Shown here piece by piece: positions 4,366 through 35,629 of a DNA stretch of 64,000 nucleotides. Position numbers and translations under genes: made by a program. Each line of letters starts with the position of its first letter. Positions within the stretch are counted from its first letter, which is position 1. Below the pieces are notes generated by a model. The model had not been told where the DNA came from and did not search any database. It was given only the letters and a program-made list of their open reading frames with translations. This stretch comes from Stratiolaelaps scimitus (Eukaryota; Arthropoda; Arachnida; Mesostigmata; Laelapidae): NCBI GenBank assembly GCA_019614645.1, contig JABWDB010000002.1, forward strand, positions 21,627,501 to 21,691,500. The letters run 5' to 3'.

Positions 4366-5229
4366 TCTATTGAAATATTCGCCCCCATTCGTAACGAGCT
4401 TCATTACTATTTAGAGATATCGCAGGTCTCCTGTTAGGTGACCTCTGTAGTGCTCCCAAGCGGCTTAATTTCCAGATGGAGTCAATTTAGGGTAGACGAG
4501 ACTGATGGTCAGTCGTTGGTTGGAGAAACTCACACGAGCAAATGGTGTAGGCGTAGGATAGTTCTGGACGCGGCTAGAACGATTCAGAGGGCCCCAATAG
4601 TTTAGTAAAGACACTCGCTCGTCTAGGAATAAACAACCACCTTATCATTTGATTATGCTCATTTCTAGTGGGACGGAAACTTCGGGTAGGACTCACTCTA
4701 TGTAAGCAGGCAACCTCAAACGTAGGAGTATCTCACAGCTCCTTTCTTGGTCCCCAGCGTTTTCTCTGATACATAAACAAGGTAAAGATATATTCTTTTG
4801 CCACAAATAAAGCCTCCCCCAAGGCTCGCAGAAGTCTTTCAACCCTCGGTTCAAGCTTTCGGAGCAGTCTTCCCAGGACGACATTTCGAGATTATCACTT
4901 GCCCCTCCGCTATTTCACCATTGTGTCTGAGGTCACAAGAAACAGAGACGAGACTCCTTGTTTGATTTCAATCAATTTTGAGATTATTTCGGATGTTCGA
5001 ATTTGCTTTTTTATAGCATGGTGTGTGGAACCGGTTGTTTCGTTCCACATGTAAGGACTCCTAGTCAGAGAACCAAACCACGGTGATTTCTAATCACCAC
5101 TCCCTCGCCCTTGAACTTAAACCTCATGTACGGGAGGTTTGACGTCATCGTCCTTACACGTTCGTACCTCCACGCTGTATCGTTGGAGACACGTGATAAA
5201 TATAATGTCTGCGAATCGTCTATGGGCAG
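4366..5229. other. Intergenic; unknown 5' part of SH2-kinase copy A
   Basis: No exon is supported. By homology to Tec/Src-like kinases one might expect upstream exons (PH or SH3 domain, initiator Met) here, but I found none. The true 5' end of copy A is therefore unresolved. Confidence 0.4.
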
Positions 5230-8200
5230 ATCGACACGTGGAGCACTTCGCTGGGCGTTCGCTCGAACTCCTTCGCTGTCAGCTTCCTGTCTCGCAATGG
5301 AGCGTCAAACTGTTTGGAGAACTACAACCTCATCGGGGCCTTTGTCATTTACGGCACGAGCGACGGAACAATAGCTCTCTCACACTACACGAAAAGGTAG
5401 ATGACATGATGGACGATTTCCCGTTTTTCGCTAACTCTTTCCTTGATTATGAGAAAGCACTATTTGATATAGAGGATATATATCGTATATTGAATACGAG
5501 AATACTGCTTGCTAACCGTACGTTGACGTTTACATATCGACAGTTTGTCTGTAATATGTACCTGCAATATCGTACGTTCGGGATAGGCGACGAGAGGGGT
5601 GAATTCAATTACTCCTGAAACAAGCTTAACTCGAGGTTCGTTCATCGAACAAGTTATTATTATATTTATTCTCGCAAAACTGCGTTCCGAACGCTGTTGT
5701 TTTTTCGAGGTGCTGTGTCAAATCTGCTGAATCCAGTTCATATCTGGCTAACTGAGTAAAAAAAGCTAATTTTTCAGACTAAAATGTAATGATGATGAAA
5801 TATTTGCCGGCGAGTGTCACAATGACGTTATTAACACTAAACCTACCGATACTTCGCACATGTGACGAGCGGTCAGCAATCGACATAATTGAAAAAATAA
5901 TCCGTCCTTAAAAACAGTTTTTGTTAGGAGTCGGTACGATTCACACGCTTCAGGACCTTCGTGAGGTTGCTGCGAGCATACGACGTGCGTAACTTGCTTT
6001 GACGGTCATAGACTACATTCTCTCTTTATGACATGTTCGATCTCGAACCTGCGGGTCTCAGTGAAGAAACACTTGAGGCGGTAGAAATGTGCGAAAGAGT
6101 GATCTTGAGATGATGATGCATGGACATGATGGGATCGATGCCGAATGTTCTCGCTGTCGCGAACAGTTGCTAACTCGTCGAGCTCTTGTTCGGCTGGCGA
6201 GGATGGACAGAGAGTAATGACCAACCATGTGCCAATAATATAAATAGAGAATATAATTTATTCTATTTGGCTGTAGGCCAATCCATAACGGAACATAGAT
6301 ATATCTTAAGATAAATAGACACAGTTGCATTAGCTCAGTATGGAAGTGGACACTACAAGCTATGTATTATATATACATATATATATATACATATATACAT
6401 ACAAAGATGAGCTGTTTTACTGGGTTGTTGCACACGTCAGTGTTGCACATGTAAAATTTTATTTGTCCCATTCGATTTAGTTCTATATTCCGAGATGCGC
6501 GTATGCATCACCAGCTCAGCAAGTTCAGTATGTGCTTGGACAGTCGAATTCTAAAACAAAGTTGTCAAGCGACATAGTACATAATCTGTCTGTGGTTGAT
6601 TTTGATTTGTGTGCAGTCGTGAAGAGCCGGTGCAGCATTATAGGATACATGTGGCTCATAATGGCGATGTTTACCTGAACTCGGAAAACCCGTTCAGCAC
6701 CCTAGAAAAACTTATCGAGTACCACCGGAAGCATGCTGACGTTCTGGATATGCCGCTTGGGGAAGCCGTCGAAATTGGTAACATTCAATTCAGATCTAGC
6801 GTGTTAGATTCGCTGTCAAGGTTATTAGCAAGCTTGATATCGCACTAGAAAGTACTACATTCTATAATTCGGTTCCTACAACGCAGAGGGGCCAGGCATA
6901 TTTGACAACGTCGTGACAAAATTGCCTTGCTTTTTCTCAAGTAGTCGTGGTAGTGGGAGTACCAGTACGAGTGATAATGGCCGTGGCCCAGTGGCGTGGT
7001 GCATTCGTGTGCGCCTTGCCATCGGCGGAAACACGTAGGTGCGCGGGTTCGATTCCTGCCGTGGACGTTAAATGTTAGCCGAAAGTCAGCCCGAAAAAGT
7101 TGACAAAAGTTTCGTTAACGGCTTATGCCGATTACTGGCTAATTGCTTTGAACTGGCTGACGTGTGATTTAAATGCAGATAGCGCGCGACACCATCAACT
7201 GTGACGAAACAAAAATCAGTGAACTCAGTACGAAAAATAATCCTGTTCATGAAGACGTATGCGAATTTTGATTTACAGAAGGTCACGAGATCGATCCCTC
7301 CGAGTTGGAGATGTCTGGTACGATCGGGTGGGGAGTTTGTGGCGCAGTTAAGCTGGCCAAGTGGGGCGTCTACGATGTCGCTGTAAAAAAAAGCAACACC
7401 CCTAACTGGGATCACCACATCCTAAACGAGATTGAAGTCATGCGGTACGTTCTTGCCAGGGCATCTTCTTTCAGTTTAGAAGTCCAGCAAACCTTCGATA
7501 GACTTTCGCCAGCTGTTGCAAGAACGTCAGATGTTAGCTGAGAGTCTGCCCGGAAAACTTTACTGGACAAAACAAGAAATCGAAGCTGACCAGTAACAGA
7601 TAGTCATTCATTTTAATGTGTATTCTGTTCAGCCATATATTTACATAGGAAAGCATGCAGTAGATACCATATTTGGGAGTGATTTTTGCAACGCACATAC
7701 GTTTTCTTTGCCCCAAACGAAGTCCTCCGTCTTCAATGATCAGACGCTCTCATACTATCGACGTTATTCACAGTAAACTCAAGCACAAAAATATCGTCAC
7801 CTATTACGGACACTGCTATCAGCCCCTGCTTCTTGTAACGGAATACGTGCAGTATGGAGATCTAAAAGACCACCTCTATGGAAGGCAGAGCACTCTCACT
7901 GAGTTCGACCTCGTCAATATTTGCTATCAGGTAAAAGGGAAATTCATCGAATCGTATTAAAAGGAGCATTATATCCTCCTCGGAGACTGGCATAAAGGCA
8001 ATGTGATCAGAGACAACTCGGAGAACCTGTGCTTCTCAAGCTGTCCTTTACACGAATTACATAACACTGAATTTGAGAAGAAAACGTAGATTTCATTGAA
8101 TACTAGATAGTATTCTAGCATCGAGGGACGTGCTATAATATTCTATTATGAACTTGCTGAACGATGCCATTAACGACTAGAACTAACTCAGTTCACCTAA

Positions 8201-11200
8201 CACTTCACTCAGGTGTGTCGAGGATGTAAATATTTGGAAAGCGTTGATCTGGTCCACAAAGACATACATTTAAGAAACATCCTCGTCGGGGGAAGGGACC
8301 CTTTTATAATCGTTAAACTCGCAGACTTCGGCCATACCAAGTAAGTTTCCCTTCAGACGATACCTGCTCGTCCGTTTGATAATCCGAAATGCTAATCCCG
8401 AGGCTGGCGCTGAGAACTTCTTCTTCTATCATATTTGCATCCGTCCCGTGCGCTAGGTTAGCTTGGACGCACAAATATTGCTAGCTATTTGACCAGCTCT
8501 TTACGAATTTCATATTTGCAGCCGATATCGTCTACGGACGTTTACCGGTTTTCGTCATTAACCGATATACTGGCGAGTGGTGCGCCCGCCATTCATTGCG
8601 CATTACGTATTATCGACATTTGGTTCAAACATAGACATAATATTGTATAACTAGTCAATTATCGGATAGAACATGAGAGAACATGTGCGGAGCTGTGTGT
8701 GTTATGCCTTTCGTTCATCGAAGTAGGACTGCTTGCGTGGTGCGTGGCATGGCCTCAGTCGTGTCTAAATGTAGTACTCTAACTGGTGATGGTGCGTCAT
8801 TTTTGCTTGCAAAATTATACCCAGCCTCTTCGAAGGGACAATTCATTATGTTCAACGATCACAAATATCCGACAGCAATACCTGGCTGACACCCAGAAAG
8901 AAAAATATTTTTCCTTTAAATTTATTTATTATTTTAATATTAATTTTCTTCCTTTGTTTTTTTTTCAGAGGCCCCTTCGCCACTTATCATGAAAGGGAAA
9001 TGCAAAGCTATGTCCGCTTCCTATTGAACGTTAGTACACGTATCATTACCAAAACTTTAAATCGACGTTTGAATCTCACAATTATTAATAGAAAAACAAA
9101 GCAATGGCTTAAATTCCTAACACGAACGAAACAGGAGCACCACTATTGCTGATCACCGGTCCGGTCCCTAAAAATCGCCCGTTGCGGGCATATGGTCAAC
9201 AGCATCGTCCCGTCATAGGTCACAAAGCCCACATAAGTCCAGTGTAACTGACCGGCCGCCCGCATAAGGCCAAAAATAGGAGTAATGCAATGAATAAACC
9301 ATTCTCCTGGCCAGTCCTTATTTCGCCCTCGTAAGGACGCCCTCTCCTGACCGGCCCTTGAAGCAATGCTACACTGCAGTGCCGAGGCCTATAGAGGCCC
9401 ACAGAAACGGTCAGCTATGGAAAACATTTAGGCTAACGACATACGTTGAATGAAGCTTAAATCGTTCGAAATCACCAACGTGATATCTTATGATCACTCC
9501 CGAAAGACGATTGCTTCTATCATTCAGTTTGAAAATCCCCGTATTTACTATAATATATGCGACGCTTGATTTTGAAACAGGTGTTTGGAATAGCGGCTGA
9601 CCCCTGTTACCAAGAGCAACATTCAATGCCGCACGATACAGATCGCGAGAACTTCCCAGATTTTGTCGATGAAGTAGTCTATGCGTGTGTCCACCGGTAA
9701 TATATTTCAAATCTTCTAAAACACGCGAAATAATAATAATAATAATGTCTATGATCAATTAGCAGCTCGAGACATTTGATTACCACTCCATTAGCATAAG
9801 AATTACGTGAGGAAAATATTCGAAGTTAACGCGTAGATGGAACGAGTAGGCACGTGAATAGCATCTAAATTATATTATTATTATTATTATTGCCAATAGC
9901 GAAGGTCGTTCTGAGCTATTTTGTACATCGAGAAACGTTGATTATTTTTGAACAAATGGTTACCTATTTATATTGGTTATCGACAACTTTCCGAAGCAAA
10001 TCGACCACAAATGTCTCTTGTTAATCTATCTGTGAACAACCATAACAACAAGAGCTTTTATCTGAGGAAAATGAAGGTTAAATCTCTCGATGGCTGTGGT
10101 TGGCCTCCATCCAGTTCGTTATTATTGCAACCGTACGGTGAGATTTTGAGTAGTTATTGAGAAGCCGCACTGTGTGCTCTCGACCCCGCTTCCATTTGTC
10201 CATGAGTTTATTTAGGAACTCGAGACATCGGGTTAAATCCTTTTCTTTCATTTCTAGCCAGTAACGAATTACTGAACGAATTCCGTTAACATTCATAGGA
10301 CGTGCAAAGTATAGTCATCACTATGATATCAAACATATTTACCCAATAAATGTGATGTATTATTTGGCATCTTGAGTATGCCACGCGCGTTTATATCCGC
10401 GCCGGTGTCAACTAGTGGAGGATCTATTTTGAATTTTTTTTTCGTCGTTTTCAATTTTTATCGTTATAACTTCGTAATATTTAGTGCGCGGAATTCCCGA
10501 CCGGGCGCACGAAGTGGCTATAGGCCAATCTTTGATTTCCTCAAAGATTCGGTAATTATCGCAGCTCGTCCACTCGTGTGATATCCTGAAATGAAGTCAC
10601 CCTCTCTCTGTGGTCTTCACAAGTATGCTCATCCTTCGAAAATGGATTACATCATCAGTAAACGTTTGGCCGGTTTAAAGCCTCATTTCGAGCATTTTCA
10701 CGAATTTTAGATGAAATTCATTCGGACGCGTTCCTTCAAGAGACAAACATGTGATCTCAGAACTCTGTTCTTCAGCACTAAACGATGTTTTAGCTTGAAG
10801 CTTCATGAGTGTTCCAAAAGAAACTGAACCAAAGCAGAATTGCACGTAGACAAATTCAAGTGTCAACCGTTCGACATTTCACCTGGCTATGGCGCGTGGT
10901 TTAAATGTTATCAAACTTTTCCGATGTAGAAGTAGCTCCGAACGACTTAATACTTATAAGCTGTCTCTAGTACATTACAACATTATTGTCAGTACTAAAG
11001 CCCATTAGTATCAATAACTAAGCAAACTTGTCGAAAACACTTTATCATCATTATTATTATTATATAATTATTATTCTCATTATTATACTGAGTCTTGTTG
11101 ATCGAAATATTGGTATAATTAATACGTGGATGCTCATATACATAATGTTTTGATCTCACTTTTCAATGCCACACGATTCGTATATTCGATACAATCCACC

Positions 11201-11604
11201 GATGCACCAAACAACGGCGAGAAGCGTTCGTCAATTTTTACAGACAGGCAGTTTAGCAGAACCAATTCAAGTGACGGACATATTCTCATCATACGTTTTA
11301 CTTGATCTTCATTTAGATCTTAGGGTTTACTTATTAAGCTCGCAAAAGCGTGAACGCCTGTTAAACCGCATCGTTCATCAATGGTATGCGTTCTATTTGT
11401 ACTCATTAGTCATAGAACCGTAGCGGTTTCGGATTAATATTTCTACGAAAGTCTTAATTATTATATTCCAGCACATCTGATAGGCCGACAAGTTTCATGG
11501 TGTTAGAGAAACATTTACGTGATGGCTTCCTCTCATATCCGAATGGTTTGAAAATGTACAACTTGATCCGGGATGGTGAGGGTCATGAAATGCCGCCGAA
11601 TTGA
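5230..11604 (+). CDS. SH2-domain tyrosine-kinase-like protein, copy A (8 exons, 5' end unknown)
   Basis: Inferred exons: 5230-5396, 6617-6777, 7279-7444, 7774-7930, 8213-8340, 8969-9029, 9581-9696 and 11472-11604 (stop). Each is bounded by AG/GT and they join in one frame. Exons 1-2 encode an SH2 domain: S-R-x-x-A-x-x-x-L, then G-A-F-V-I-Y where F-L-V-R is expected, then Q-H-Y-R-I and F-S-T-L-E-K-L-I-E-Y. Exon 3 has G-W-G-V-x-G-A-V and V-A-V-K (ATP lysine), with N-E-I-E for alphaC. Exon 4 is the N-lobe/hinge (K-H-K-N-I-V, E-Y-V-Q-Y-G-D-L). Exon 5 has V-H-K-D-I-H-L-R-N and A-D-F-G. Exon 8 has R-P-T-S-F. The order and the V-C-x-G-x-x-Y-L-E helix are closest to Tec/Btk-type kinases. The activation-loop donor (gttagt) is weak, and no APE exon was found. 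Phosphotyrosine signalling at the membrane is expected for the family, but activity and specificity are uncertain. Copies B and C are its paralogues. Confidence 0.8.
6365..6405. repeat. (AT)n-rich microsatellite in an intron of copy A
   Basis: Imperfect ATATAT/ACATAT tract between the two SH2 exons of copy A. Confidence 0.85.
6978..7120 (+). mobile_element. tRNA-derived SINE (family 1)
   Basis: It has a perfect RNA polymerase III A box (TGGCCCAGTGG, 6984-6994) and B box (GGTTCGATTCC, 7046-7056), followed by a short tail. Related copies lie at 12830-13060, about 20978-21131 and 47470-47585, and a 3' fragment lies near 7525-7570. The A-to-B spacing is longer than in a functional tRNA and the cloverleaf arms do not pair, so this is a SINE and not a tRNA gene. 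It sits in the intron between the SH2 and kinase exons of copy A. Confidence 0.75.
7525..7570 (+). repeat. 3' fragment of SINE family 1
   Basis: The stretch ATGTTAGCTGAGAGTCTGCC matches the tail of the 6978-7120 element with a few changes. No A or B box is kept. Confidence 0.4.
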
Positions 11605-12500
11605 ACAACAAGGATCATCGACACAACGGACAACAATCGTATCGGCGCCTTACCCCTTGATGGTGCCGAATTGGATCATTGAATAGCCAGTGGTCGCAGT
11701 ACAACTTTTGCAAGGGGGTCGTAGATTTGTGTACAGTTTAAGCAGGGTCAATGTTGTTACACTGTTGAACTGGCTACTTCATTGTAAAATAATTGTTCGA
11801 GTTCCAGTGAAAATAATCTAAAACCCTTCACTCAACTCAAGTTTATATATATATGTATGTATATATATATATATATAGCTTCTGTACTTGGGAACCTTTA
11901 ACTGACTAAACAACAGACTTAAAGTCAAATGACGAAGTGACATCATGAAACAAAGACACAGTGTGAGCTTGTCATTTTAAATGCACACTTTTAACAATTT
12001 CCTAAACCACCCAATTAAGTTATCATTAATATATGTATATAAACATAGAGAGAGAGAGGAAACATGAACAAAACGGTTGTCACCAAAACGACCGCAAACA
12101 ATTTTTCCCTGTATATATATATATGTATACGCATGTATCATTTTTATTAAAACTTTGTTTGTTATAGTTTTTCTTTAACCCGAGTCGATCACGAACGTCA
12201 CTCGAAAATTCATGCTGTATATGACAACATTCCCAACGGTTCGGCTTCAACTTTTTACTGAAGTGCATTCCGTTGGGATGATTTTCTTACCTTAAAACAG
12301 AAGAGGATGAAGCGACGAAAATAAAGTCAACTAAAGATACCTCATGGGCTAAGTGGCATTTTGAATTATAAGTAGGTAGTTGTCCTTTTCACTGTTGGAA
12401 ACTGGTGGTTTACAGGAGAGATTTTGTCACTCAGCGTGGAAGTGTGAGAGCGTTACAGCTGCATATGCGACGAGACGGCAGATTGATTAAAATTGAGTAA
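11166..12500 (+). CDS. Low-confidence two-exon open frame overlapping the end of copy A
   Basis: An ATG at 11166 opens a frame that reaches a possible donor (ATG|gtatgcg) near 11383. A possible acceptor before 12417 opens a short frame ending at a TAA near 12500, and the phases fit. The product would be about 100 aa, rich in Leu, Arg and Gln, with no family resemblance. The last exon of kinase copy A lies inside the proposed intron on the same strand, which argues against it being a separate gene. It may be chance or an alternative 3' end. Confidence 0.15.
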
Positions 12501-12829
12501 GTCAGCTGCTTGTGGCCGCTATCTATTTTTGGTTTCTATTATTTTTAGGAGAACTTAGGCATCGTACAGCTGCTGTTCCGTCAATAAACCTGCCAACTGA
12601 ATGAATGAATTAATGAATCTAAAATGACACGGAACTGATTATATATGGTACTCACTCCAGCATGATTTTCTTCTCCAGTCGAAGTTTAGCATAAATGGCA
12701 CCGCTCTCGTTAGGGGCACGTACCAATCAACCACATTTCGCTGTCAGGGCTTGGTTATTCCTTAGAAATGCGTTGATGAACACTGAGTATATTTGAGTTC
12801 CCTATCTCATTCAAATCTATCCATAGCAC
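11605..12829. other. Region downstream of copy A
   Basis: AT-rich sequence with (AT)n tracts at about 11845-11878 and 12113-12128. Apart from the doubtful exon near 12417-12500, I see nothing coding. Confidence 0.5.
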
Positions 12830-13060
12830 TCCTTGATACTGTTCCACTGCATCGGCTAGATCGACGGCAAATTTCAGGGTTGGATGTTAAATTTAGGCAT
12901 GATGCGTCCACGCGTTCATGACACTGCTTTTGGCATTGCTTCATAAGACGGACCCCCATTTGAATGCGAATGTAGAACGAGGGTAATCGAACCCGTACAC
13001 CTACGTTGAGGCCGGTGGCATGGTGCATTCGTGTGCGCTTTGCAGTCGGAGGACCCTGTA
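12830..13060. mobile_element. Rearranged SINE (family 1), two pieces head to head
   Basis: The left piece (about 12830-13008) carries the B box on the - strand (reverse complement of GGTTCGATTACCC). The right piece (about 13012-13060) carries the A-box side (GGTGGCATGGTGCATTCGTG) on the + strand. The two parts of one SINE consensus are thus in opposite orientation. That suggests an internal inversion, or two insertions next to each other. Confidence 0.55.
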
Positions 13061-14184
13061 AAATCTGAAGCCGATTTGCCTTTGAGTTCTATTTAGGGGT
13101 AATATAGATGAGATACAAACTGAAGCAGGGCGAACTGAAGCTGGAACTTGCACGTAATGTAAAGTCATGAAACGGAACAAATCTTTAGGACTAGGAGACT
13201 CTTGTAGAGGTTAGTATAAATTCGGACATTGTCGTTGCCTGCGCACCACATAATTATATAGAGCCGAAACACCAGCTGAAGGTGAAAAACGGATCATAAG
13301 CATAATAAATGGAAACACGGCTTTACGCATTTTATAGGTAAAATTTTATTGATGTTAATTTCGCCAAGCTAATTTAGCGTATGTTTACAATATTCGTTAT
13401 CGTTGAAATGATTAAACGTCTTGAACAAAGTACAGCCTTCGACAGTACACTTCAAAAAAGTACAGACCAAGAACATCATCACACGTGTGCTAATTTACAA
13501 TCAAATAGCATTTTGCTAAATGGGAAATTTTTATAATCTCTCGGTCCTTTTTCGCTATCACAAAACGGAATGAAATACGTTCATATACTTAAATCATTTA
13601 CTAAACAATTAAAAGTACTCATCATCAGAACCACAACACAACAAATTCTGTATTACACGAAGAGCTGTTCGTGTTGTACCATTATTAAAGGTACGTTCCC
13701 CAAATATAATAAAATCTGTTGTTATCATTCAGTTACGACAAACTGCTCTTATCAGTACGACGTATCCGCAAGATATAATCCAATAGACTATTTGGATCGT
13801 TGGGAGAGAACATCAAATAAATCGTAAGGGGACAGAAACTTAGTGGTCGTATTCCCCTTGAGAAATAAGTTTCACCGAGTGCGAGTCTCTTAATTTAAAA
13901 GAGGATATTTCTGGTACTAACCGTCAAGCGCGTCGATTAAAAATGTACAATACGAGACATAAATATATTATGGCATCCTAGCAGACTTAAAATGGGATAG
14001 GATAGGCCCTGGTCAACTAGGGCCTTCTTGTAGAGCCTTCTTTCAGCATTTTGCTAGCAACATATACGAGATTTATACTATTCGTCAGACAGGCCCCTAT
14101 ATCGGAAAACGTAGATATCAACTCATCCATGGGCTCTATGATGTTCGGGGGTGAATTCCAATTCCTCTATTGTCAGCCACTTTG

Positions 14185-17100
14185 TCAGTCTTCATGTTCT
14201 CTCAACTTTTGGGATTGTGGTATCCAATCTTCATCATCTGACACGTCTCGGAAGAGTTTGTACATTTCTTGGGCCATTTCGTTTGTGAAGAAGATTGCCG
14301 CTAACTTCTTCTCCAATGTGATAAAACTCGGTAGGCCGTCTAACCAGTATCTGGAAGGGCTAACACCAAAAACAGCGCCAGATTCCTCGTAGCTTTTACG
14401 AAGTTGAAAGCGTTAAACGTCGTTATGTCAATTTGCTACAAATGTCGCCATCAAAGAAGTTAAAAGTATTTTCGTATAAGACAATTCCAATATTTTTTTA
14501 CAATTGAAGACCGAGACTATGGGGAGGTAGCTGAGAGTCAGCATGGCAACGCCTCCCCTTTAAAAAAACTGTTGTCATAGAGTAGTAGAATCGTAATATA
14601 CCTTCGACAAGCATTGAACACATGGCTGAGTACTGCGGGAATATTGCGAGCTCGTGCCAAGAAATCCTTCTTCGAACCATCATATTCGAAGACCTTGCCG
14701 GTCGCTAATGCAAACACCTATTCCAAGAAATGAGATCCACACACGGAACTTAATAGCACGGTCATTTTAGAAAATTAGAGAATTGTTGTCAACCATTCTG
14801 CGACTCCGTGTTCTGTTGTAACTACTTACGAGATGAAATATCTATATTAGGCTAAACATAAATATATGATATCTGGTGACTGAATTGTAGTAAAAATGCC
14901 TTGATGACGACTTGGTAGATTGAGTTTGACAGCATAGATCAGTCATGTTCCGTTGTATAATATTATAAGTCATTCACAAGACGTTAGCCATACATAATGG
15001 TAATTAATATAAAGTTTATATTAACTACTGTATTTTCAATTGTGATTTTGTGTGATTGATCATCCGGGTGAGATATATTCTGACGTTAACGAGTAGACGG
15101 CTGTATTGTTCGATATTCTCCACGAGACTATACCCAGCGTCCGTGGTCGCGTCCCTGCGAATAGACGAAAAATTAAAAAAACAAATATTACTTCTAAATG
15201 CATGTGAACTTGGGTGTTTTAATTTTCGAAAAAATATTTCGAGAAAATGTTCTCTCAGCAATCAATCAATCTTAAGAAATAAGCTAAGTCTACTCATTCA
15301 GATAACTCACACATCTATGATATGTGATTTGACAATGATCAATCAATCAATCAACTAACGCTTAGTAAAAGTAAGGTCCAAGCTCTATAAACCATATTTC
15401 CATGAAAAATCTTTCGGTTCGCGCAATTTAGAGAGTGATGAGCTCACGGCAAAATTAGATAACACGCGCAAGTGCTGAGTCTTCTGCCAATGGCCCCACC
15501 GGTAGTCGAATGCATCGAGGTCGGGCAGGACTTCGACAAAGGTGACCCGTTGATATCTAGTAGCGTATGCAGCTGAGTGTGCATAACAGATCCAAAAAAA
15601 AGCATGATTATTAATTATTAATAAGTAAAGGTACACATACCTAACGTGGCCGAAATCGGTGAGTTTAACTACTACACAAGGATGTTCGCCGTCGACAAGA
15701 AAGTTTGCCATATGGATGTCGTCATGGATGAGTTGCATATGTTCCATGTAGCTCAGGCCCCGACATACCTAAACGTAAACGTTCCCGTTGAAGTTAGCAC
15801 ACATAATAAATAGCAGGTGGTCGCGTCGGTTTATTCAGTGAAGGCGACGACTCGCGTTTTAGTCTAAGATGACCCATAAGTGTGACAAATGAATAGTTGT
15901 TGTCTTAAAGTATATCAGAATCACGAGACAGATATTTTATGATACGACAGACTGCCTGTGGAACGACTATATGTTTGGTATACCTGAGGCCAGCGACTAC
16001 GAACTGCAACTAAATCCCCGACACGTCTACATAGTAAAAATGTTGAAAAATTATAATTCATTAGAAAAAGATAGAAAATTGTAATTTTTGAAAATAACGA
16101 AATTTAAAAGCGCAACAGGGATAAACTTACCTGATAGCATATATTGATAAGATCAAACTCGGCTAATAAGCCTCTATTCTGTTTAATGTACTTTTTCAAA
16201 TCTCCGTTAGGCAGATATTCCAGTACCATCATTGCAGGCCGCCCTTTACTGCCCCCGAAGAAAGTCACGACATTTTTGTGATTGAGCTTCCTGTGATAAA
16301 TATAGTTAAGTTCATTCCGTAAGATAACTACCATCCAGCTTTTTCTATCGGGCATAAAATGAGCACTGAGTAAGTTAATGCTAAGCAACAGCTTGTATAT
16401 TTCATGCGATCTAGTGTGAAACTGGTACATTTCAACGGCGATCTTTGTGTTGTTTCAAATTTATTATCTTACGGGATATCAAGGAGAATTCATGTATACG
16501 CAGTTAATTATTACTGATTATTCATATAATATGGTCAACAATGTTTACGCCGAAGTCAAGACGTGTGCAAGCGTAGGAGATCGTAATTAAAAAGAAAACG
16601 TACAAAACCAATACACAAAGAAATAGATAACAACTCACTTTATGGAGTCCAACTCCGAGCGAAGGTAGAAATCCATGCTGCGGTTATGGCTTATTTTCAG
16701 TGCGACTTCGTAGGTACCCCACTTGCCTCGAAATACATTCGCAACACTCCCACTACCGATTTTCTGAAACCGTTCCACGTCGGCGCAAAGGATCTCCCAA
16801 TCGTCTGCAAGTTGAAATCGATGGAGGTTGTCTTGTAAAAATGACAAAATTGTTTGCAGGGTACAGGCACAACACGAAACACGCAGGGACCCTTTCTCTG
16901 CAGCGCTTTGCGATAGCGGTGAGTGCGGAGAGGCAATGCCAGCCATCGCCCCTTTTGGGGGCCGTGACAGCTTCGGCCTGAATCCCTGACCCTACTCCCC
17001 AAGCGGATAACATTGTGATGATAAATAAATTATAAATCAAAGCAATGGACAAAAAGTATACAGAATTAATGTGGTAGCCGTCTTGTGAGCACTAACAAGC

Positions 17101-17785
17101 TTTAGCTTTCGGAAGGAATCAGAGTGGATTCCTTTATGACAATATGTTGTGTACATACTATGTAACGACATACATGGTGATGTAAATTTGTATAAGACAT
17201 CTTATGGTATAATAATATTCAAATAAATAAAAATGTAATTATTATTAGTTCAACAATCGCAAATGACATAATGAACTTTACCAATTCCGGCGGCTTTCCC
17301 AAGCGGCATATACAGATCATCTGTCTCGTTCTTGTAATAGTCGATAAGTTCTCCGAAGTTTCCAAACGGCTGGTTAGCGTTTAAATACAGCTGGCCACAA
17401 TCGTTGATTCCAATATTGTGGTGCTGCACCGGTTGGCTGTCACTGTACAGGCAGACAAAGTATATGCTTGACATGTATTTCACTAGTATTTCCAAGGTGG
17501 AACATTCACTAACTCGTTTTATGTACACCTTGAGGTTTCGACGTAATTTTCATTATTTCTAAAGAAAACCGTAAATGCGGTCCGCAGGGTATTCGTCATC
17601 AAGCCCATTGATCACCTTTGAATGAAATGCGACAGGACCATGGTTCCATCGTTGGGTGCACAGAAGAGATAGGCACCGACGCGGCCCAATTCAATCAGAT
17701 GTTTTTCGGCTTTCTCCCGAGACATGTAGCCGGCGAAAGCATAATAGCGTGTCATTTCTCGTCGTCGTCGCCGCTTTGTCTCTAT
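14185..17785 (-). CDS. SH2-domain tyrosine-kinase-like protein, copy B (8 exons)
   Basis: Inferred exons, in transcript order: 17785-17616, 17442-17282, 16804-16639, 16290-16131, 15768-15641, 15154-15085, 14717-14602 and 14359-14185 (stop). They share splice phases with copies A and C, and every exon is open. The SH2 part has M-S-R-E-K-A-E-K-H-L and G-A-Y-L-F-C (Cys at the FLVR arginine position). The kinase part has G-S-G-S-V-A-N-V, V-A-L-K, S-E-L-D-S (alphaC Glu), L-E-Y-L-P-N-G-D-L, H-D-D-I-H-M-A-N-F and T-D-F-G. The last exon has L-P-S-F-I-T-L-E-K-K-L in place of the usual R-P-S-F. About 266 bp (near 15290-15556) is absent from copy C. Its divergence from C is concentrated in parts of the kinase domain, while the first SH2 exon is the same in protein. 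The start codon is not established; an ATG lies inside exon 1, about 28 nt from the acceptor. Confidence 0.8.
15290..15556 (-). other. Segment present in arm B, absent from arm C, with a possible APE/alphaF-like frame
   Basis: In arm C the sequence passes directly from ...GCATACGCTACTAG to ACTTAGCTTATTTC. Arm B has about 266 bp between these points. On the - strand the segment continues an open frame reading V-E-V-L-P-D-L-D-A-F-D-Y-R-W-G-H-W. This resembles the kinase P-E-V-L-(x)n-D-V-W-S-F-G region that is missing between exons 6 and 7, but it lies before exon 6 instead of after it. It also holds a TGAT/TTGA-rich stretch near 15340-15355. Whether it was lost in C or gained in B cannot be told here. 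Confidence 0.45.
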
Positions 17786-17994
17786 CTGGATGACATCAAA
17801 CACGAGACAGTGATCATCTGTTTGTTTTTATTCAATACTGAATACTTGCCATATATCACCTGATACGATATTTATTTATTGATTTTTTTAACAACGTTCG
17901 TTGGACAGGTGAAACATGTCCAATAACATGAAACATGCTACGTATAACAAACGCGCTTAGGTAACGATGTTTTTCAAATACGAAGTTCATTAAA

Positions 17995-18780
17995 TAATAG
18001 TAATAATATGACGAGCTATTACTCTTATTGTGACTATAGATGTTGCTTTGATATGCGAGAGGGGATTCCAGTATTATTGTTATTATAATAATAACAATAA
18101 TACTGGAATCCCCTCTCATTATTATTAATATTCTCACTAGGCATATGATAAACGAGGACTGTCTGCCGGCAACTCAAATCTGACGAGACTGTACTGACAA
18201 AACCAACTTTTAATCTGCTCACGTGTTGAAGCTCCATGATGTAGACGAGTTCTTCAAGCCGCGACCGACTGGTCTTACCGGCTATCTTCTTGACCACCGA
18301 AACAAATAAAGGTCCCGTTCTAAAGTGGCAATCTTTTCTTTTCTTGACTTGAGCTTCCTTCGACACAATGGTCTGTGCAGACGCCCTAATCTGTGCTACA
18401 GACCTGATTCGAGTAACGTGGACAAGCACTGCTACCACTAAGATAACATGACGGGTTCGAAATGCGTCAGATTTACCATATGAATCGCGCCGGCGTGTTC
18501 CACTTCAGATTCACTGTGCGCACTCGATCGTGTGTTTGTTTGTGCCTTTGTGCTGCCCGTGGCAATTGCTTGGGTCGCCGTTGGCTCAGTGATGCGTTTG
18601 TGAGTGGTAACTGCAAATATGACCTCAAACAGTGTTACGGTACGTTCCACCTTGGAATCGAATAGTAACCCTTCTTCGATGACTAGTCAACTAACGAAAG
18701 TGAAGCAATGATGAAGGGCAGTTGATAGGATTATAATAATAACAGCTATATATATATATATATATATGTTATAGATAATA
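17995..18780. other. Spacer between the inverted-duplication arms
   Basis: About 786 bp of unique sequence between the inner ends of arms B and C. It is the only possible shared upstream region for the two divergently transcribed kinase copies. It contains a perfect 61-nt palindrome and an (AT)n tract near 18749-18768. Minus-strand open frames at 18034-18438 and 18438-18650 show no known domain and are not called as genes. Confidence 0.7.
18057..18117. repeat. Perfect 61-nt palindrome (30-bp arms, 1-nt centre)
   Basis: The sequence from GAGAGGGGATTCCAG to CTGGAATCCCCTCTC is exactly its own reverse complement apart from the single central base. It can form a loopless cruciform or hairpin. It lies off-centre in the spacer of the large inverted duplication, so it is a separate palindrome and not the junction of the arms. 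Confidence 0.95.
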
Positions 18781-18989
18781 TTTAATGAACTTCGTATTTG
18801 AAAAACATCGTTACTTAAGCGCATTTATTACACGTAGCATGTTCTGTGTTATTGTACATGTCTCACCTGTCGAACGAACGTTGTTAAAAAAATCAATAAA
18901 TAAATATCGTATCAGGTGATATATGGCAAGTATTCAGTATTGAATAAAAACAAACAGATGATCACTGTCTCGTGTTTGATGTCATCCAG

Positions 18990-21900
18990 ATAGAGACAAA
19001 GCGGCGACGACGACGAGAAATGACACGCTATTATGCTTTCGCCGGCTACATGTCTCGGGAGAAAGCCGAAAAACATCTGATTGAATTGGGCCGCGTCGGT
19101 GCCTATCTCTTCTGTGCACCCAACGATGGAACCATGGTCCTGTCGCATTTCATTCAAAGGTGATCAAAGGCCTTGATGACGATTACCCTGCGGACCGCAT
19201 TTACGGTTTTCTTTTTAGAAATAATGATAAGAAATGAAAATATTCGTCGTCTTTTGCTCCATAATCTGGGTTGTGCGGCACTACATATTAGGCTAGGCAG
19301 GTTGGCAATTGACACGGCGTTATCCATCCGTGATGGTTCACACCTTGTGTCGGAAACACCTAGGGGCACAGCTTGCGTAAATAGACCGCTTATCGCTGGT
19401 TCAAATCCCCCAGTGACCTCCTGGAGCTGTGGCTTTTTCCATTTATTGACAGTTCTTGTACTAATACCTAAACGAATAAATTTTGATAATTGTCTAATGG
19501 GAGAAGTGCCTGACTGGCGGCCAGCCGGCCGCCAACGAAAGTACACAAGCTCATCCAACCATCACAGTTGGAAGCTGTTGTTCGTTGCAGATGTCAGTTA
19601 CAACGGTTGCAACACAGAATGTTGTTAAAACAAAGTGATTTCACAGCTCGGAATTACGTCGAAACCTCAAGGTGTACATAAAACGAGTTAGTGAATGCTC
19701 CACCTTGTAAATACTAGTGAAATACATGTCAAGCGTATACTTTGTCTGTCTGTACAGTGACAGCCAACCGGTGCAGCACTACAATATTGGAATCAACGAT
19801 TGTGGCCAGCTGTATTTAAATGCTAACCAGCCGTTTGGAAACTTCGGAGAACTTATCGACTATTACAAGAACGAGACAGATGATCTGTATATGCCGCTTG
19901 GGAAAGCCGCCGGAATTGGTAAAGTTCATTATGTCGTTTGCAATTGTTGAACTAATAATAATTACATTTCTGTTTATTTTAATATTAGCATAGGGTGTCT
20001 TATGCAAATTTATATTCACCATGTATGTCATTTCATATTAGTCATAAAGGAATCCACTTTGATTCTTTCCAAAAGCTAAAGGTTGTTAGTGTTCTCAATA
20101 CGGAAGCCACACTAATTAGATCAATGAGCAATAATAATGATATTTTATTTATTATAATTATTTATTATCAATATTATACTTATTTACTATAATTATTACA
20201 ATTATTTGCTATAATTAGTCGCCCGTGGTTATTGCATTATGTTGCGTTCCTGCACGGGATATTCAGTAGGTACTTTTTTATGCGACATTCATCTCACCAT
20301 TCCTTTCCATCTGCGGGTAGGCGATTGATAGAGCTGACCTGTCTAATTATAGAATATGCCATTTGCAACGATTGTCACCTAACAAAATATGTGCTGCATA
20401 TCATAAACACCAGTAAACGAGCTACAATTTTCCAAATCGTTGCACTCCTAGCTACTTTGGCTCCAGGTGGACAATATATGCGAAGGACATTATTATTGCT
20501 GTTGACATCGTATACTATTTGTCGATCGTTTTGTACTGTAATATATTTATAATCAGTTAGTTATCCTTTTGTGGTTGGTGGGGGTTGGGATTCAGGCTGA
20601 AGCGGTCATGGCCCCGAAGGCGGCTATGGCTGCCATTGTCTCTCTGCACACACCGCTAGGGAAAGACGCTGCAGAAACAAGGTCTCTGAGCGCTTGTCAC
20701 CCGTGCCGTGCTTTGTGTTGTATTTCTGCCCTGCAAAAAAGTGTGTCATTCTTACAAGAAAACCTCCATTCGTTTCAACTTACAGACGATTGGGAGATCG
20801 TTTTCACCGACGTGGAACGGTCTCAGAAAATCGGTCGTGGGAGTGTTGCGAATGTATTTCGAGGCAAGTGGGGTACCTACGAAGTCGCACTGAAAATAAG
20901 CCGCAGCAAGTGCATGGATTCTAACCTCTCGTCGGAACTGGACTCCATAAAGTGAGCTCTCATATTTTTCTAGGTGTGCTGTTGGTAGTCGATCGCGATG
21001 GCGTGGTGCTTTCGTGTGCGGTTGTACTCGGGTCCGATCCCCAACTATTGCACGTTAGCATTTAATGAGCCCGTTTTAAGAAGCAATATCGTGAACGTTG
21101 AATATTAGCTGAGCGTCACCGCACTTTTTAGGTGTTCTGTTTTTGTATTATGTTTTGTTTAATTGCGATCTTTCTCCGCCACACGTTTTGACTTCGGTAT
21201 AAACAGCTAGATGGATTTTAATTAATTATCGGTGATATCTCGGAAAAATACTAATTGTGTAACGAAACAAAGATCGCCGTTGAAATGTACCAGTTTCACA
21301 CTAGATCGCATGAAATATACAAGCTGTTGCTTAGCATTAACTTATTCAGTGCGCATTTTATGCCCGATAGAAAAAGCTGGATGGTAGTTATCTTACGGAA
21401 TGAACTGAACTATATTTATGACAGGAAGCTCAATCACAAAAATGTTGTGACTTTCTTCGGGGGCAGCAAAGGGCGGCCTGCAATGATGGTACTGGAATAT
21501 CTGCCTAACGGAGATTTGGAAGAGCACATTAAACAGAATAGAGGCTTCTTAGCCGAGTTTGATCTGATCAATATATGCTATCAGGTAAGTTTGTCCCTGT
21601 TGTGCTTTTAAATTTCGTTTTTTAATTGCAATTTTCGATTTTCTTTCTAAAAAAATACAATAAAATATCTGTCTCGTGATTCTGGTATACTTTAAGACAA
21701 CAACTATTCATTTTTCACACTTATGGGTCATCTTAGACTAAAACGCGAATCGTCGCCTTCACTGAATAAACCGACGCGACCACCTGCTATTTATTATGTG
21801 TGCTAACTTCAACGGGAACGTTTACGTTTAGGTATGTCGGGGCCTGAGCTACATGGAACATATGCAACTCATCCATGACGATATCCACATAGCAAACTTT

Positions 21901-23150
21901 CTTGTCGACGGCGAACATCCTTGTGTAGTAGTTAAACTCACCGATTTCGGCCACGTTAGGTACGTGTACCTTTACTTATCGTTAATTAATAATCATTGCT
22001 TTATTTTGGATTTGTTATGCACACTCAGCTGCATACGCTACTAGACTTAGCTTATTTCTTGAGATTGATTGATTGCTGAGAGAACATTTTCTCGAAATAT
22101 GTTTTCGAAAATTAAAACACCCAAGTTTACATGCATTTAGAAGTAATATTTGTTTTTGTAATTTTTCGTCTATTCGCAGGGACGCGACCACGGACGCTGG
22201 GTATAGTCTCGTGGAGAATATCGAACAATACAGCCGTCTACTCGTTAACGTCAGAATATATCTCACCCGGATGATCAATCACACAAAATCACAATTGAAA
22301 ATACAGTAGTTAATATAAACTTTATATTAATTACCATTATGTATGCAACGGAACATGACTGTCTTCTATGCTGTCAAATCCAATCTACCAAGTCGTCATC
22401 AAGGCATTTTTACTACGATTCACTCACCAGATATCATATGTTTAGCCTAATATAGATATTTCATCTCGTAAGTAGTCACAATAGAACACGGAGTCCCAGA
22501 ACGGTTGAGAACAATTCTCTAGTTTTCTAAAATGACTGTGCTGGCAATATTCCGTGTGTGGATCTCTTTTCTTAAAATAGGTGTTTACATTAGCGACCAG
22601 GAATGTGTTCAAATATGTTGGTTGGAAGGACGATGATACCTTGACACAATCTCGCAATATTCCCGCAGTACTCAGCCATGTGTTCAATGCTTGTCGAAGG
22701 TATATTACGATTCTACTACTCTATGACAACAGTTTTTTTTAAAGGGGAGGCGTTGCCATGCTGACTCTCAGCTACCTCCCCATAGTCTCGGTCTTCAATT
22801 GTAAAAAAATATTGGAATTGTCTTATACGAAAATACTTTTAACTTCTTTGATGGCGACATTTGTAGCAAATTGACATCACGACGTTTAGGAACTTCAACA
22901 TACTCGCATTTCTATTGGCAATCGCTTTCAACTTCGTAAAAACAACGAGGAATCTGGCGCTGTTTTTGGTTTTAGCCCTTCCAGATACTGGTTAGACGGC
23001 CTACCGAGTTTTATCACATTGGAGAAGAAGTTAGCGGCAATCTTCTTCACAAACGAAATGGCCCAAGAAATGTACAAACTCTTCCGAGACGTGTCAGATG
23101 ATGAAGATTGGATACCACAATCCCAAAAGTTGAGAGAACATGAAGACTGA
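18990..23150 (+). CDS. SH2-domain tyrosine-kinase-like protein, copy C (8 exons)
   Basis: Inferred exons: 18990-19159, 19758-19918, 20786-20951, 21425-21584, 21832-21959, 22180-22249, 22581-22699 and 22976-23150 (stop). Together they give about 382 codons in one frame. The SH2 domain has M-S-R-E-K-A-E-K-H-L, G-A-Y-L-F-C in place of F-L-V-R, and Q-H-Y-N-I. The kinase domain has D-D-W-E-I before the glycine loop G-R-G-S-V-A-N-V, F-R-G-K-W-G-T-Y-E-V-A-L-K, E-Y-L-P-N-G-D-L-E, V-C-R-G-L-S-Y-M-E, H-D-D-I-H-I-A-N-F and T-D-F-G-H-V-R. The G-K-W-x-x-Y-x-V-A-x-K and V-C-x-G-x-x-Y-x-E patterns resemble Tec/Btk kinases. The Arg of HRD and the A-A-R of tyrosine-kinase catalytic loops are both missing. Copy B is transcribed divergently from the same spacer. 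The mRNA 5' end and the initiator Met are unproven. Confidence 0.8.
19229..19648 (+). mobile_element. Insertion in arm C with a tRNA-derived SINE (family 2)
   Basis: About 420 bp is absent from the matching intron of copy B, where AGAAATAATGA joins directly to AATTACGTCG. It contains a B box (GGTTCAAATCC, 19398-19408) followed by AGTGACCTCCTGGAGCTGTG and TTTTTCC. The same arrangement occurs near 48725-48785, which supports a repeat family different from family 1. Open frames across it on both strands are not called as genes. Confidence 0.6.
20125..20560. other. AT-rich insertion in an intron of copy C
   Basis: The intron between the SH2 and glycine-loop exons is about 390 bp longer in C than in B. 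The extra sequence starts with a TTATTATAATTATT-rich stretch. No element family was recognised. Confidence 0.5.
20978..21131 (+). mobile_element. tRNA-derived SINE (family 1) in arm C only
   Basis: It has GATGGCGTGGTGCTTTCGTG and a decayed B box (GGGTCCGATCCCC), like the 6978-7120 element. Copy B lacks it at the matching place. The flanks TTTCTAGGTGTGCTG and TTTTTAGGTGTTCTG look like an imperfect target-site duplication. The insertion therefore postdates the B/C duplication. Confidence 0.7.
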
Positions 23151-23713
23151 CAAAGTGGCTGACAATAGAGGAATTGGAATTCACCCGCGAACATCATAGA
23201 GCCCATGGATGAGTTGACATCTACGAACGTACCTTTAATAATGGTAGAATACGAACACCTGTTCGTGTAATACAGAATTTGTTGTGTTGTCGTTCTGATG
23301 TTGAGTACTTTTAATTGTTTAGTAAATGATTTAAGTATATGAACGTATTTCATTCCGTTTTGTGATAGCGAAAAAGGATCGAGAGATTATAAAAATTTCC
23401 CATTTAGCAAAATGCTATTTTATTGTAAATTAGCACACGTGTGATGATATTCTTGGTCTGTACTTTCTTTGTAGTGTACTGTCAAAGGTTGTACTTTGTT
23501 CAAGATGTTTTATCATTTCAACGATAACGAATATTGTAAACATACGCCAAAATTAGCTTGGTGAAATTAACATCACTAAAATTTTACCTATAAAATGTGT
23601 AAAGCGGTGTTTTCATTTATTATGCTTATGATCCGTTTTTCACCTTCAGCTGGCGGTTTGGCTCTATATAATTATGTGATGGTTGGAAGGAGGATGATGC
23701 GCAGGCAACGACA

Positions 23714-33621: not shown

Positions 33622-35629
33622 TTAGAGGGCTCTTACGGATGCGCTGTCTGCATCAGGAGCACCGACTGCGACAGACACACAGAATTTTCCATCCACAAGG
33701 CACGCCGTTGATCTTAAACTAGCTACCCCTACAAAACGGTTAAAGTCTTGGCTAGCATTTTCAGGGTGACTGGAACGTTTACCGTGTGAACTGTTTTCCC
33801 GCACTGAATTGAAAGTCTGACTCTCAACAACAACGCCATGCTTATCGTGAAATCGCAAGGTGATCTTCCGATGTATTGGCGAGGGCGCTATCGATCTTAT
33901 ATCATTCGTGGGGGACACATAGAGACCCAGACGTTCATCACCGTCAATCGTTTCCAGCGTCACGAATATCTTAAAAGGGAAACCCGCAATAATCTTGTAT
34001 TGCGGCGCGGATTCTAGATTTGATTGGCTTGTCCTGAATTCGGTATAGAGTGTGTCGAAATCGAACCACAAGATCGCCTCTTGCAAAGAAGCAACTCTAT
34101 CCATTAACGTACGAGCCTCAACTATCTCTCTTCGAAGGCTATTCGATTCATCATGCACATACTCTCGTAATGAATTCGTGTCGTTTTGGTAGCACAACTC
34201 ATTTTGTCTCGACCTTCGCAATGATCTTGTCTAATTTGTGCTGAAGCACTCCGATAGCATCGGTATCCTCGCCTTCACCAGTGATCTTCCTCGGTTCACT
34301 CCATCCATCTTCTATTATCTGTTGCCGAATCAGACTGCGAACTCTCTCTTCAGTCAGCTGTTCCCCTCGCTGAGTTAACGAGTTAGACAAGTTATTGACA
34401 CTTGTAAAAAGGGTAGCGATGTTGTAACCAAAAACGCCGGAATCAGCTTCTCGATCAGACTCATTTGAGATCGCCATCAGTTCGAGGTCAGCAAGCTTCT
34501 TCCGGAAGTCTGCGTGGTTCGCCTCAATCCTCATATCGTCCACCTGCTTCCTTAGTTTGTCGACTTCTTCGCGAGCCAGTCTACGGACATTATTCACATC
34601 GATCGCTTGCGCGAGGTTGATCGTGGACATTGTTTGGTCGACAGCGGTATTAATAATTGGAATCATTTCCGTGAAAACATATTCCTTGGCCGTTAGTTTA
34701 TCGGCGTCGATTTTCTTCTCTATCATATCAATTCGCTCATGTGTCTTTAATAGGCAGCTTTCCATTTTAGTCATCTGCTGCTTGTGCTGGTCGTCTATGA
34801 TGGCAGCTCCCCCCTCTCGAATATCCTGAATCGCATTCGTGATTCCATCATCTGGACTCGCTCTGCCCTTGGGCGTTGTCTGGGTTGATTCTTGGTTGGC
34901 AATGTCGCGTAACCCACTGTTATCAGTGTGGTGTCGTGCACCATCGATTGACGGAGTATCTGGCCGAAGAGCAGTCTTGGCGAGTGCGGTGATCTCCTTT
35001 AGAGGAATGTCCGCGTCCGCGGCCAGTTCATAGCCGACAACTTTGAAGAGTTGGATCATTTTTTCGGACATCTCCCGAACCTCCTTTATGACTGAAGTCA
35101 AGCCTAAATTGGCCTCTGTGACGACTTCATTATCAATTTGCGTCGTCTGCTTGGTTATCAATGACGAGATGGTTGAAACACTTTCCTTCAGATCTCGTTC
35201 TGCAGATGAGCGCAGACTTCGTCCGTTATTATTTTGTGTCGTGGACCCTGTATCCCTATGAAATCGAATATCGTCGGTCGCGACATGTGCGTGGTCTGTT
35301 ATGAGATGCTTCCTGACAGAAGCAAGGATACCCTCAAAGCCACATTCGCAACGAAACAGCACCTGGGCGAGTATATTGACAGGAACACCACGTTGCCGTA
35401 ACGGAACCATGCCACAGCATTGGGGGCACCATCCTAGCTCTCCGATACGTGGTGATGAAGGTACAGCACAGTTCGAGCAGATGACGTGATCCACGCTACA
35501 GATTAAGACCGACGGTCCCGCCGTACCGCAATTCAGGCACGTGCACTCATTGAGAATCGAGGTAGAATATACAGGCGTGAGGTTCAAATGACCCACATGA
35601 AGTTCCGGTGGTAGACCTTGAAATCGCAT
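33622..35629 (-). pseudogene. TRAF-like protein 1 with a single-base frameshift
   Basis: Frame 1 (35629-34199, 476 aa) starts M-R-F-Q-G-L-P like the neighbouring paralogue. It has the same N-terminal zinc-binding pattern (C29-x-C31-x2-C34-x9-C44-x3-H48-x2-C51-x2-C54, then C-x2-C), a TRAF-type zinc finger (F-R-C-E-C-G-F-E-G, R-K-H-L), and a long helical, Glu/Lys/Ile-rich coiled-coil region. It stops at 34199. The MATH/TRAF-C domain follows at once in another frame (34221-33622): W-F-D-F-D-T-L-Y, Y-K-I-I-A-G, L-G-L-Y-V-S, F-V-G-V-A-S-L. The two frames overlap by about 20 nt around a run of four A (ACAAAATGAG). TRAF proteins are cytoplasmic adaptors of TNF/Toll-type signalling. The break may be a recent real mutation, a sequence error in the A run, or recoding. 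Codon integrity on both sides argues for a recent change or an error. Confidence 0.8.

Follow-up and report, generated by a model that had tools for sequence, protein, structure and literature searches.

A Tec-type SH2-kinase family in mites whose SH2 domains lack the FLVR arginine and whose activation segment is shortened

TYK2 is a kinase with the domain order FERM-SH2-pseudokinase-kinase. Pseudokinases are defined by the loss of the beta3 Lys, the HRD Asp or the DFG Asp, and in non-RD kinases, which have lost the HRD Arg, control through activation-loop phosphorylation is not expected. We know of no tyrosine kinase that lacks an activation segment yet keeps its catalytic residues. Few SH2 domains lack the FLVR arginine; the account in PMC7530234 gives three human proteins, TYK2 and RIN2 with His and SH2D5 with Trp at this position, and describes the TYK2 SH2 cleft as binding its partner without need for phosphotyrosine. 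In the description of PMC3415842, eukaryotic-like kinases such as choline kinase and aminoglycoside kinase have a short stretch between DFG and alphaF and no APE.

We analyzed a window of 64,000 nt from the mite Stratiolaelaps scimitus (GCA_019614645.1, contig JABWDB010000002.1, positions 21,627,501-21,691,500); all coordinates below are positions in this window. It contains three SH2-kinase genes (A, B and C) of eight open exons apiece, as follows.

5230-5396, + strand: copy A exon 1, SH2 first half (alphaA-betaC); betaB5 is Tyr (5350-5352)
6617-6777, + strand: copy A exon 2, SH2 second half
7279-7444, + strand: copy A exon 3, kinase N-lobe with G-loop, beta3 Lys and alphaC Glu
7774-7930, + strand: copy A exon 4, kinase hinge to alphaE
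8213-8340, + strand: copy A exon 5, catalytic loop HKD...N and DFG
8969-9029, + strand: copy A exon 6, shortened activation-segment exon, 61 nt
9581-9696, + strand: copy A exon 7, alphaF to alphaH
11472-11604, + strand: copy A exon 8, RPTSF..., family C-terminal helix, stop
13244-23681, no single strand: inverted duplication holding B (-) and C (+); 12 arm pairs, 84-99% complementarity
17616-17755, - strand: copy B exon 1, SH2 first half; betaB5 is Cys (17662-17660)
17282-17442, - strand: copy B exon 2, SH2 second half
16639-16804, - strand: copy B exon 3, kinase N-lobe; 145/166 bases the same as C
16131-16290, - strand: copy B exon 4, hinge to alphaE
15641-15768, - strand: copy B exon 5, catalytic loop HDD...N and DFG
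15085-15154, - strand: copy B exon 6, shortened activation-segment exon, 70 nt
14602-14717, - strand: copy B exon 7, in frame, 3 bases fewer than C exon 7
14185-14359, - strand: copy B exon 8, includes stop
19020-19159, + strand: copy C exon 1, SH2 first half; betaB5 is Cys (19113-19115); ATG at 19020
19758-19918, + strand: copy C exon 2, SH2 second half
20786-20951, + strand: copy C exon 3, kinase N-lobe
21425-21584, + strand: copy C exon 4, hinge to alphaE
21832-21959, + strand: copy C exon 5, catalytic loop HDD...N and DFG
22180-22249, + strand: copy C exon 6, shortened activation-segment exon, 70 nt
22581-22699, + strand: copy C exon 7, alphaF to alphaH
22976-23150, + strand: copy C exon 8, family C-terminal tail, stop

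The preliminary description of this DNA had reported open exons and conserved splice phases, and both were confirmed: all 24 exons are open, with the phases 2,1,2,0,2,0,2 in A, B and C alike. Copy A extends to 11604, further than previously described. The 5' border of its first exon is uncertain, with an acceptor-like AG ending at 5229 and a frame that is open from 5206 and contains no in-frame ATG. In copy C, the frame is also open upstream of the ATG at 19020, matching the N-terminus RRREMTR of a Varroa homologue. Pfam found no domain in four other ORFs. B and C stand head-to-head with 756 nt between the innermost arms, and their first exons are identical at 140/140 bases. They thus represent one recent inverted duplication, and the locus holds two lineages rather than three; the earlier count of three paralogous genes is right, but it overstated their independence.

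The SH2 domain is real in all three copies, scoring 34.9 bits in copy A and 33.8 bits in copy C against a Pfam cut-off of 21 (both models scored without the last exon). The fold motifs described earlier were recovered in part, ELIDYY being present in B and C while A reads KLIEYH. The central observation, absence of the FLVR arginine from every copy, was borne out. In phmmer alignments, the FIVR arginine of BTK falls opposite Tyr in A and Cys in C, and the betaB5 codons are TAC in A and TGT in B and C. No Arg occurs anywhere in the betaB-betaC stretch of the three copies, and no second SH2 first-half exon was found in the window, so the counter-case foreseen in the preliminary description, an Arg placed elsewhere at betaB5, was not encountered. 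A search of the window with the corresponding exon of the mite's own Btk29A-type gene, as a source of an alternative SH2 exon or betaB5 Arg, gave other matches only at E values of 2.1 or worse. Across the same genome, betaB5 is Arg in 35 of the 36 SH2 domains that were readable by eye and Thr in the remaining one; these 36 come from 38 hits of an HMM that itself favors Arg, and A, B and C lie outside the 38.

It is hardly credible that a missed exon carrying the FLVR arginine, or a fold-back assembly error generating B and C, underlies these observations. The uncertain 5' borders of the gene models and the head-to-head arrangement of B and C are what such an artefact might leave, but the Tyr or Cys lies within the SH2 first-half exon itself, whose donor phase is that of the own Btk29A, and no second exon of this kind was found in the window. 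The arms also diverge, with large indels and 69-100% identity per 150-base block over the genes, and the Cys is independently present in the Varroa protein.

The remainder of the phosphotyrosine pocket is partly retained. The alphaA2 Arg and betaD4 His are common to A, B, C and the Varroa homologue, and A has Arg at betaD6, so that some phosphate contact is possible. The SH2 domain might therefore still bind phosphotyrosine through alphaA2, betaD4 and betaD6, like the C-terminal SH2 domain of p120RasGAP, for which PMC7530234 describes binding via betaD4, betaD6 and the BC loop. We regard this as quite unlikely, since betaD6 is Asn in B and C and Asp in Varroa, betaD4 is His here but Arg in p120RasGAP, and the BC-loop Ser pair (NSS in the own Btk29A) is missing from B, C and Varroa, which read CAPxDG. 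Loss of canonical phosphotyrosine binding is the reading we prefer. TYK2 offers a likeness in that it also carries an SH2 domain without the FLVR Arg within a kinase (PMC7530234), but A, B and C are short SH2-kinases of Tec descent with Cys or Tyr at this position. Pfam detected SH2 and kinase in the models of A and C and in the precomputed annotation of the Varroa protein, but FERM in none of them.

Several lines of evidence connect the family to Tec kinases (BTK, Tec, Drosophila Btk29A), which share its SH2-kinase order and include BTK, the best match among solved structures. All seven internal introns of A, B and C match those of the own Btk29A-type gene (contig C43, about 1.075-1.088 Mb; end of exon 7 shifted one base by hand before the final comparison) in both position and phase, which identifies A, B and C as Tec-derived paralogues. 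A 12-row tree placed the family with the Tec rows, apart from Src-like and Abl-like rows (94/92, branch not starred), and fixes no position of the family relative to the own Btk29A; a clade of A+B+C without Varroa was not rejected (p 0.188). These comparisons indicate that A, B and C arose through duplication of a Tec-type (Btk29A) gene. Unlike Tec kinases, the three copies lack the betaB5 Arg, HRD Arg, activation-loop Tyr and APE, and have a shortened SH2-kinase linker, an insert before DFG and a new C-terminal tail. Queries made of the own SH3 and a fish PH-TH-SH3 gave no credible match in the window (best E value 0.073, a proline run), and the precomputed Pfam annotation of the Varroa protein likewise lists no PH, TH or SH3.

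The kinase half combines a conserved core with extensive losses around it. A, B, C and the Varroa homologue agree at all 11 catalytic-motif positions, including the beta3 Lys, alphaC Glu, HxD Asp, Asn and DFG. The proteins are therefore not sequence-defined pseudokinases, from which they differ in retaining the catalytic Lys, Asp, Asn and DFG; no catalytic motif residue is lost in any of the four. HRD is replaced by HKD in A, HDD in B and C and HCD in Varroa, and in this lack of the HRD Arg the family resembles non-RD kinases. The activation-segment exon has shrunk in frame to 61 nt (A) or 70 nt (B and C) from the 136 nt of the own Btk29A-type gene. The regulatory activation-loop Tyr and the APE region are lost in A, B and C, and APE is absent from the Varroa protein too. 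We considered a missed exon holding the activation loop and APE and rejected it, as the borders and phases of exon 6 equal those of the own Btk29A, the exon is merely short, and Varroa is short there as well. Varroa retains the Arg between alphaH and alphaI that partners the APE Glu; A has it one residue earlier, and B and C have Leu instead. All four sequences share two additions, three residues inserted before DFG and a new helical tail at the C-terminus. New in the present analysis are the Tec parentage read from the introns, the in-frame shrunken activation-segment exon, and the loss of the HRD Arg with the catalytic positions kept.

PMC3415842 characterizes eukaryotic protein kinases by an extended segment and an APE Glu-Arg pair, and the absence of APE places all four sequences outside that description; in their short DFG-alphaF stretch without APE they resemble eukaryotic-like kinases, although A, B and C descend from a true tyrosine kinase. 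They could thus be active kinases with an unusual substrate, having lost the activation segment secondarily and converged on the short loop of eukaryotic-like kinases, a group with many members that use small molecules as substrates. The invariant Lys, Glu, HxD Asp, Asn and DFG of the four sequences would fit this, as would the short unregulated segment that PMC3415842 gives as typical of eukaryotic-like kinases. The atypical-kinase profile ABC1 matched copy C at 28.7 bits, above its cut-off of 22.9, and APH and Kdo gave C matches below threshold, but A reached only 16.3 bits with ABC1, and the tyrosine-kinase profile scored far higher for the two models (104.3 and 115.2 bits). The peptide-presenting P+1 and APE regions are gone, and the alphaF Asp, kept in Varroa, is Glu in A and Asn in B and C. 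We judge such an activity unlikely, and favor a kinase half that would serve mainly as an ATP-binding scaffold or modulator.

The homologue search with C gave one match, P0001 of Varroa jacobsoni, named 'Btk29A-like isoform X2' in its source and 44-45% identical to C over nearly its full length. P0001, the single sequence cluster recovered, has Cys at betaB5, HCD in place of HRD, a short activation segment and the tail motif of A, B and C; it differs in retaining both the alphaF Asp and the RPSF Arg and in details of the SH2-kinase linker and tail. Between C and Varroa, the Cys-pocket exon is the best conserved exon (65%). Between A and Varroa, the SH2 first half is 35% identical and the catalytic-loop exon 67%; the former is not specially conserved, and the SH2 constraint is therefore clear only for B and C with Varroa. 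In a model of P0001, the SH2 domain showed the helix-strands-helix order (SH2 pLDDT of 52-78 per ten-residue block), and the 50 matches listed in a fold search were tyrosine kinases, eukaryotic-like kinases not being compared as such. The alignment behind the model had 24 rows, of which 12 held one exon each, drawn from exons 1-5 of the three copies. Exons 6-8 of A and C (six pieces) were omitted, having been misplaced in an earlier 28-row alignment with 16 exon pieces. The earlier structure model had a mean pLDDT of 50.6, and the fold search from it was set aside.

Wider searches added no further member. A four-sequence profile search gave 24 matches, with P0001 the sole family member and the 15 other SH2 carriers (P0002-P0016) all from fish, and a search with P0001 gave nine matches, none of the other eight named as mite and four of them lacking an organism name. 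Because the homologue search detects only sequences that share 5-residue words, the lack of matches elsewhere carries little weight. When P0001 was compared with the S. scimitus genome, 16 of the 60 matches listed fell in the window, and none of those listed outside it covered the SH2 part. Literature searches on FLVR-less SH2 domains and on Varroa or mite Tec-type kinases returned nothing on this family among the titles and abstract starts listed.

These genes might alternatively be decaying Tec pseudogenes that have lost their function and whose frames are still open by chance. The B-C comparison leaves some room for this: dN/dS is 0.64-0.76, with 29 nonsynonymous and 10 synonymous codon differences, which is compatible with relaxed constraint, and 9% of 500 simulated neutral copies were still open at 0.06 changes per site, so that the openness of B and C alone proves little. 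Copy A exon 1 also lacks an in-frame ATG. Against decay, dN/dS between A and B/C is 0.33-0.38 at a dS of 1.3-1.7 (two of three methods), no simulated copy out of 500 was still open at either 0.3 or 0.75 changes per site, every exon is open with matching phases, the catalytic positions are invariant and the Varroa homologue is full-length. Pseudogene decay is thus very unlikely, and the earlier view of an established lineage-specific class is supported by the Cys in Varroa, the A-B/C dN/dS and the simulation.

We consider it probable, from the S. scimitus sequences and the one homologue found outside that genome (Varroa), that A, B and C form an intact mite SH2-kinase family that arose by Tec-type duplication, with an SH2 domain predicted not to bind phosphotyrosine canonically and a kinase domain that would act mainly as an ATP-binding scaffold or modulator. 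The loss of the phosphotyrosine-gripping residue of SH2 and of the switching loop, with the catalytic core kept, suggests a signaling protein that no longer reads phosphate. Neither half would then sense phosphate. The SH2 domain, without canonical phosphotyrosine capture, may bind, in the manner of TYK2, a partner that is non-phosphorylated or acidic, or else pack against its own kinase; a changed ligand or an autoregulatory role, as previously proposed, is plausible. The kinase would not be switched through activation-loop phosphorylation, would have little ordinary peptide-kinase activity, and may modulate perhaps the canonical Btk29A pathway. A bolder reading, which we consider rather unlikely, is that this mite tyrosine kinase lineage, missing every phosphate-reading element examined (FLVR Arg, HRD Arg, activation-loop Tyr and loop) with its core kept, became a phosphorylation-independent SH2-kinase and reverted to a short loop, its SH2 domain serving a new non-phosphorylated ligand and non-peptide or tethered substrates being possible. 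The analysis exposes a mite signaling gene family of which the one annotated member found is named simply 'Btk29A-like'. With both changes present in diverged natural sequences and an unchanged parent-type gene in the same genome, the family may represent an evolutionary experiment on an SH2-kinase without phosphate sensing.

Three SH2-kinase genes were modeled by reading GT-AG borders and then comparing the models with a homologue:

about 5230-11604, plus strand: gene A, 8-exon model
17755-14185, minus strand: gene B, 8-exon model
19020-23150, plus strand: gene C, 8-exon model

Every exon of the three models reads open, and the intron phases are alike (2,1,2,0,2,0,2). Pfam placed SH2 and protein-kinase domains above cut-off in the A and C models without their last exons, and BTK was the top solved relative by sequence, both for the A and C queries and for a four-sequence profile. 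A search of the window gave no credible match to PH, TH or SH3. The 5' ends of the models are provisional: exon 1 of A has no in-frame ATG, and the frame immediately upstream of the ATG of C resembles P0001, a Varroa jacobsoni homologue named Btk29A-like isoform X2.

The preliminary description had read Tyr (A) and Cys (B and C) at betaB5, the FLVR arginine position of SH2, and phmmer alignments with BTK and the codons bore this out. The arginine of BTK FIVR aligned with Tyr in A (GAFVIY) and Cys in C (GAYLFC); exon 1 of B is identical to that of C (140/140 bases), and B has the same Cys. The codons are TAC in A, TGT in B and C, and CGA in Btk29A, the canonical Tec-type gene of the same genome. 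No arginine was found elsewhere in betaB-betaC of A, B or C. In the predicted structure of the Varroa homologue, strand betaB spans residues 49-54, with Cys54 as its last residue. As a control, 36 of 38 genome matches to the Pfam SH2 profile, none of them the window copies, were readable by eye, with Arg at betaB5 in 35 and Thr in one; as the profile is biased towards Arg, the count gives an upper bound on its conservation.

The mite's own Btk29A lies on contig C43, with PH in locus L084 and the TH-like and SH3, SH2 (FVIR) and kinase parts in L077. All seven internal introns of its SH2-kinase part fall at the same positions and in the same phases as in A, B and C, and the Src-like and Abl-like genes of this genome (named by reading) are intronless at the N-lobe/hinge and hinge/catalytic-loop borders. 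In a 12-row tree, A, B, C and P0001 formed a clade (100/100). The intron match and the tree together indicate a set of derived Tec-type paralogues, whose placement among the Tec rows the tree does not fix. Within the clade, P0001 was closer to B/C than to A (86/84), which, if real, would make the A versus B/C split older than the split from Varroa; a clade of A, B and C without Varroa was not rejected (p 0.188). P0001 had at least 60 matches in the mite genome, 16 inside the window, and among the matches listed none outside the window covered the SH2 part. Searches with C, the four-sequence profile and P0001 found P0001 as the single homologue beyond this genome.

The dN/dS between A and B/C was 0.33-0.38 (dS 1.3-1.7, two methods), and that between B and C was 0.64-0.76 (three methods). 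In neutral simulations starting from C, none of the 500 copies kept an open frame at 0.3 changes per site; 9% did so at 0.06 and 27% at 0.03. Between C and Varroa, the first half of SH2 with the Cys pocket was the most conserved exon (30/46, versus 134/321 for the rest; P 0.004), and the activation exon (4/24) and alphaF-alphaH exon (8/38) were the least. The activation exon was the most conserved between own Btk29A and a fish Tec (35/46). Between A and Varroa, the catalytic-loop exon ranked highest (28/42) and the first half of SH2 was ordinary (15/43).

B and C form the two arms of an inverted duplication at 13244-23681. Their exons 1, 6 and 8 are identical, exons 3 (145/166) and 7 (101/116 aligned positions) are both 87% identical, and the introns are 82-98% identical. 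This patchy divergence suggests that the palindrome is a mosaic shaped by gene conversion between the arms.

A, B, C and P0001 share a three-residue insert ahead of DFG and a helical C-terminal tail (F......MY.L..D) after alphaI, carried by the final exon in the three window genes; neither was seen in the Tec rows compared. A further Tec-like gene, D (C43:1152845-1140841, minus strand, L078 and L080), lies some 55-70 kb from own Btk29A, with exon borders that resemble it by eye. Its SH2 has Thr at betaB5 (FLVT), making it a putative second Tec-type paralogue without the FLVR arginine, and the changes in its kinase (beta3 Lys to Arg, HRN for HRD, DVG for DFG) define it by sequence as a pseudokinase. 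Elsewhere in the window, two related minus-strand ORFs at 34199-35665 (488 aa) and 37860-39368 (502 aa) have similar Cys-rich starts (MRFQGLP.ELHVG...LTPV); Pfam matched neither, and the second matched TRAF5 at chance level only (E 0.66). Pieces resembling tRNA-derived repeats with a GGTTCRA box were seen by eye in introns of A (6980-7060) and C (19390-19430); an ARAGORN scan of the whole window gave no tRNA.

As read from their sequences, the family members have lost the activation segment together with the two arginines that read phosphate, and have kept the SH2 domain and the catalytic core. Recognition by their SH2 would be independent of phosphotyrosine, as in JAK kinases, where a Glu often sits in the SH2 cleft and, in TYK2, a His replaces the FLVR arginine (PMC7530234). 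Weak phosphate binding is possible because the alphaA2 Arg and betaD4 His are kept, above all in A, which has an Arg at betaD6. The kinase half would work without phospho-switching. C exceeded the cut-off of the Pfam profile for ABC1 atypical kinases, so the protein could instead be an active enzyme that uses a different substrate. The family protein would more probably bind ATP and serve as a scaffold or modulator, perhaps with Btk29A as its target.
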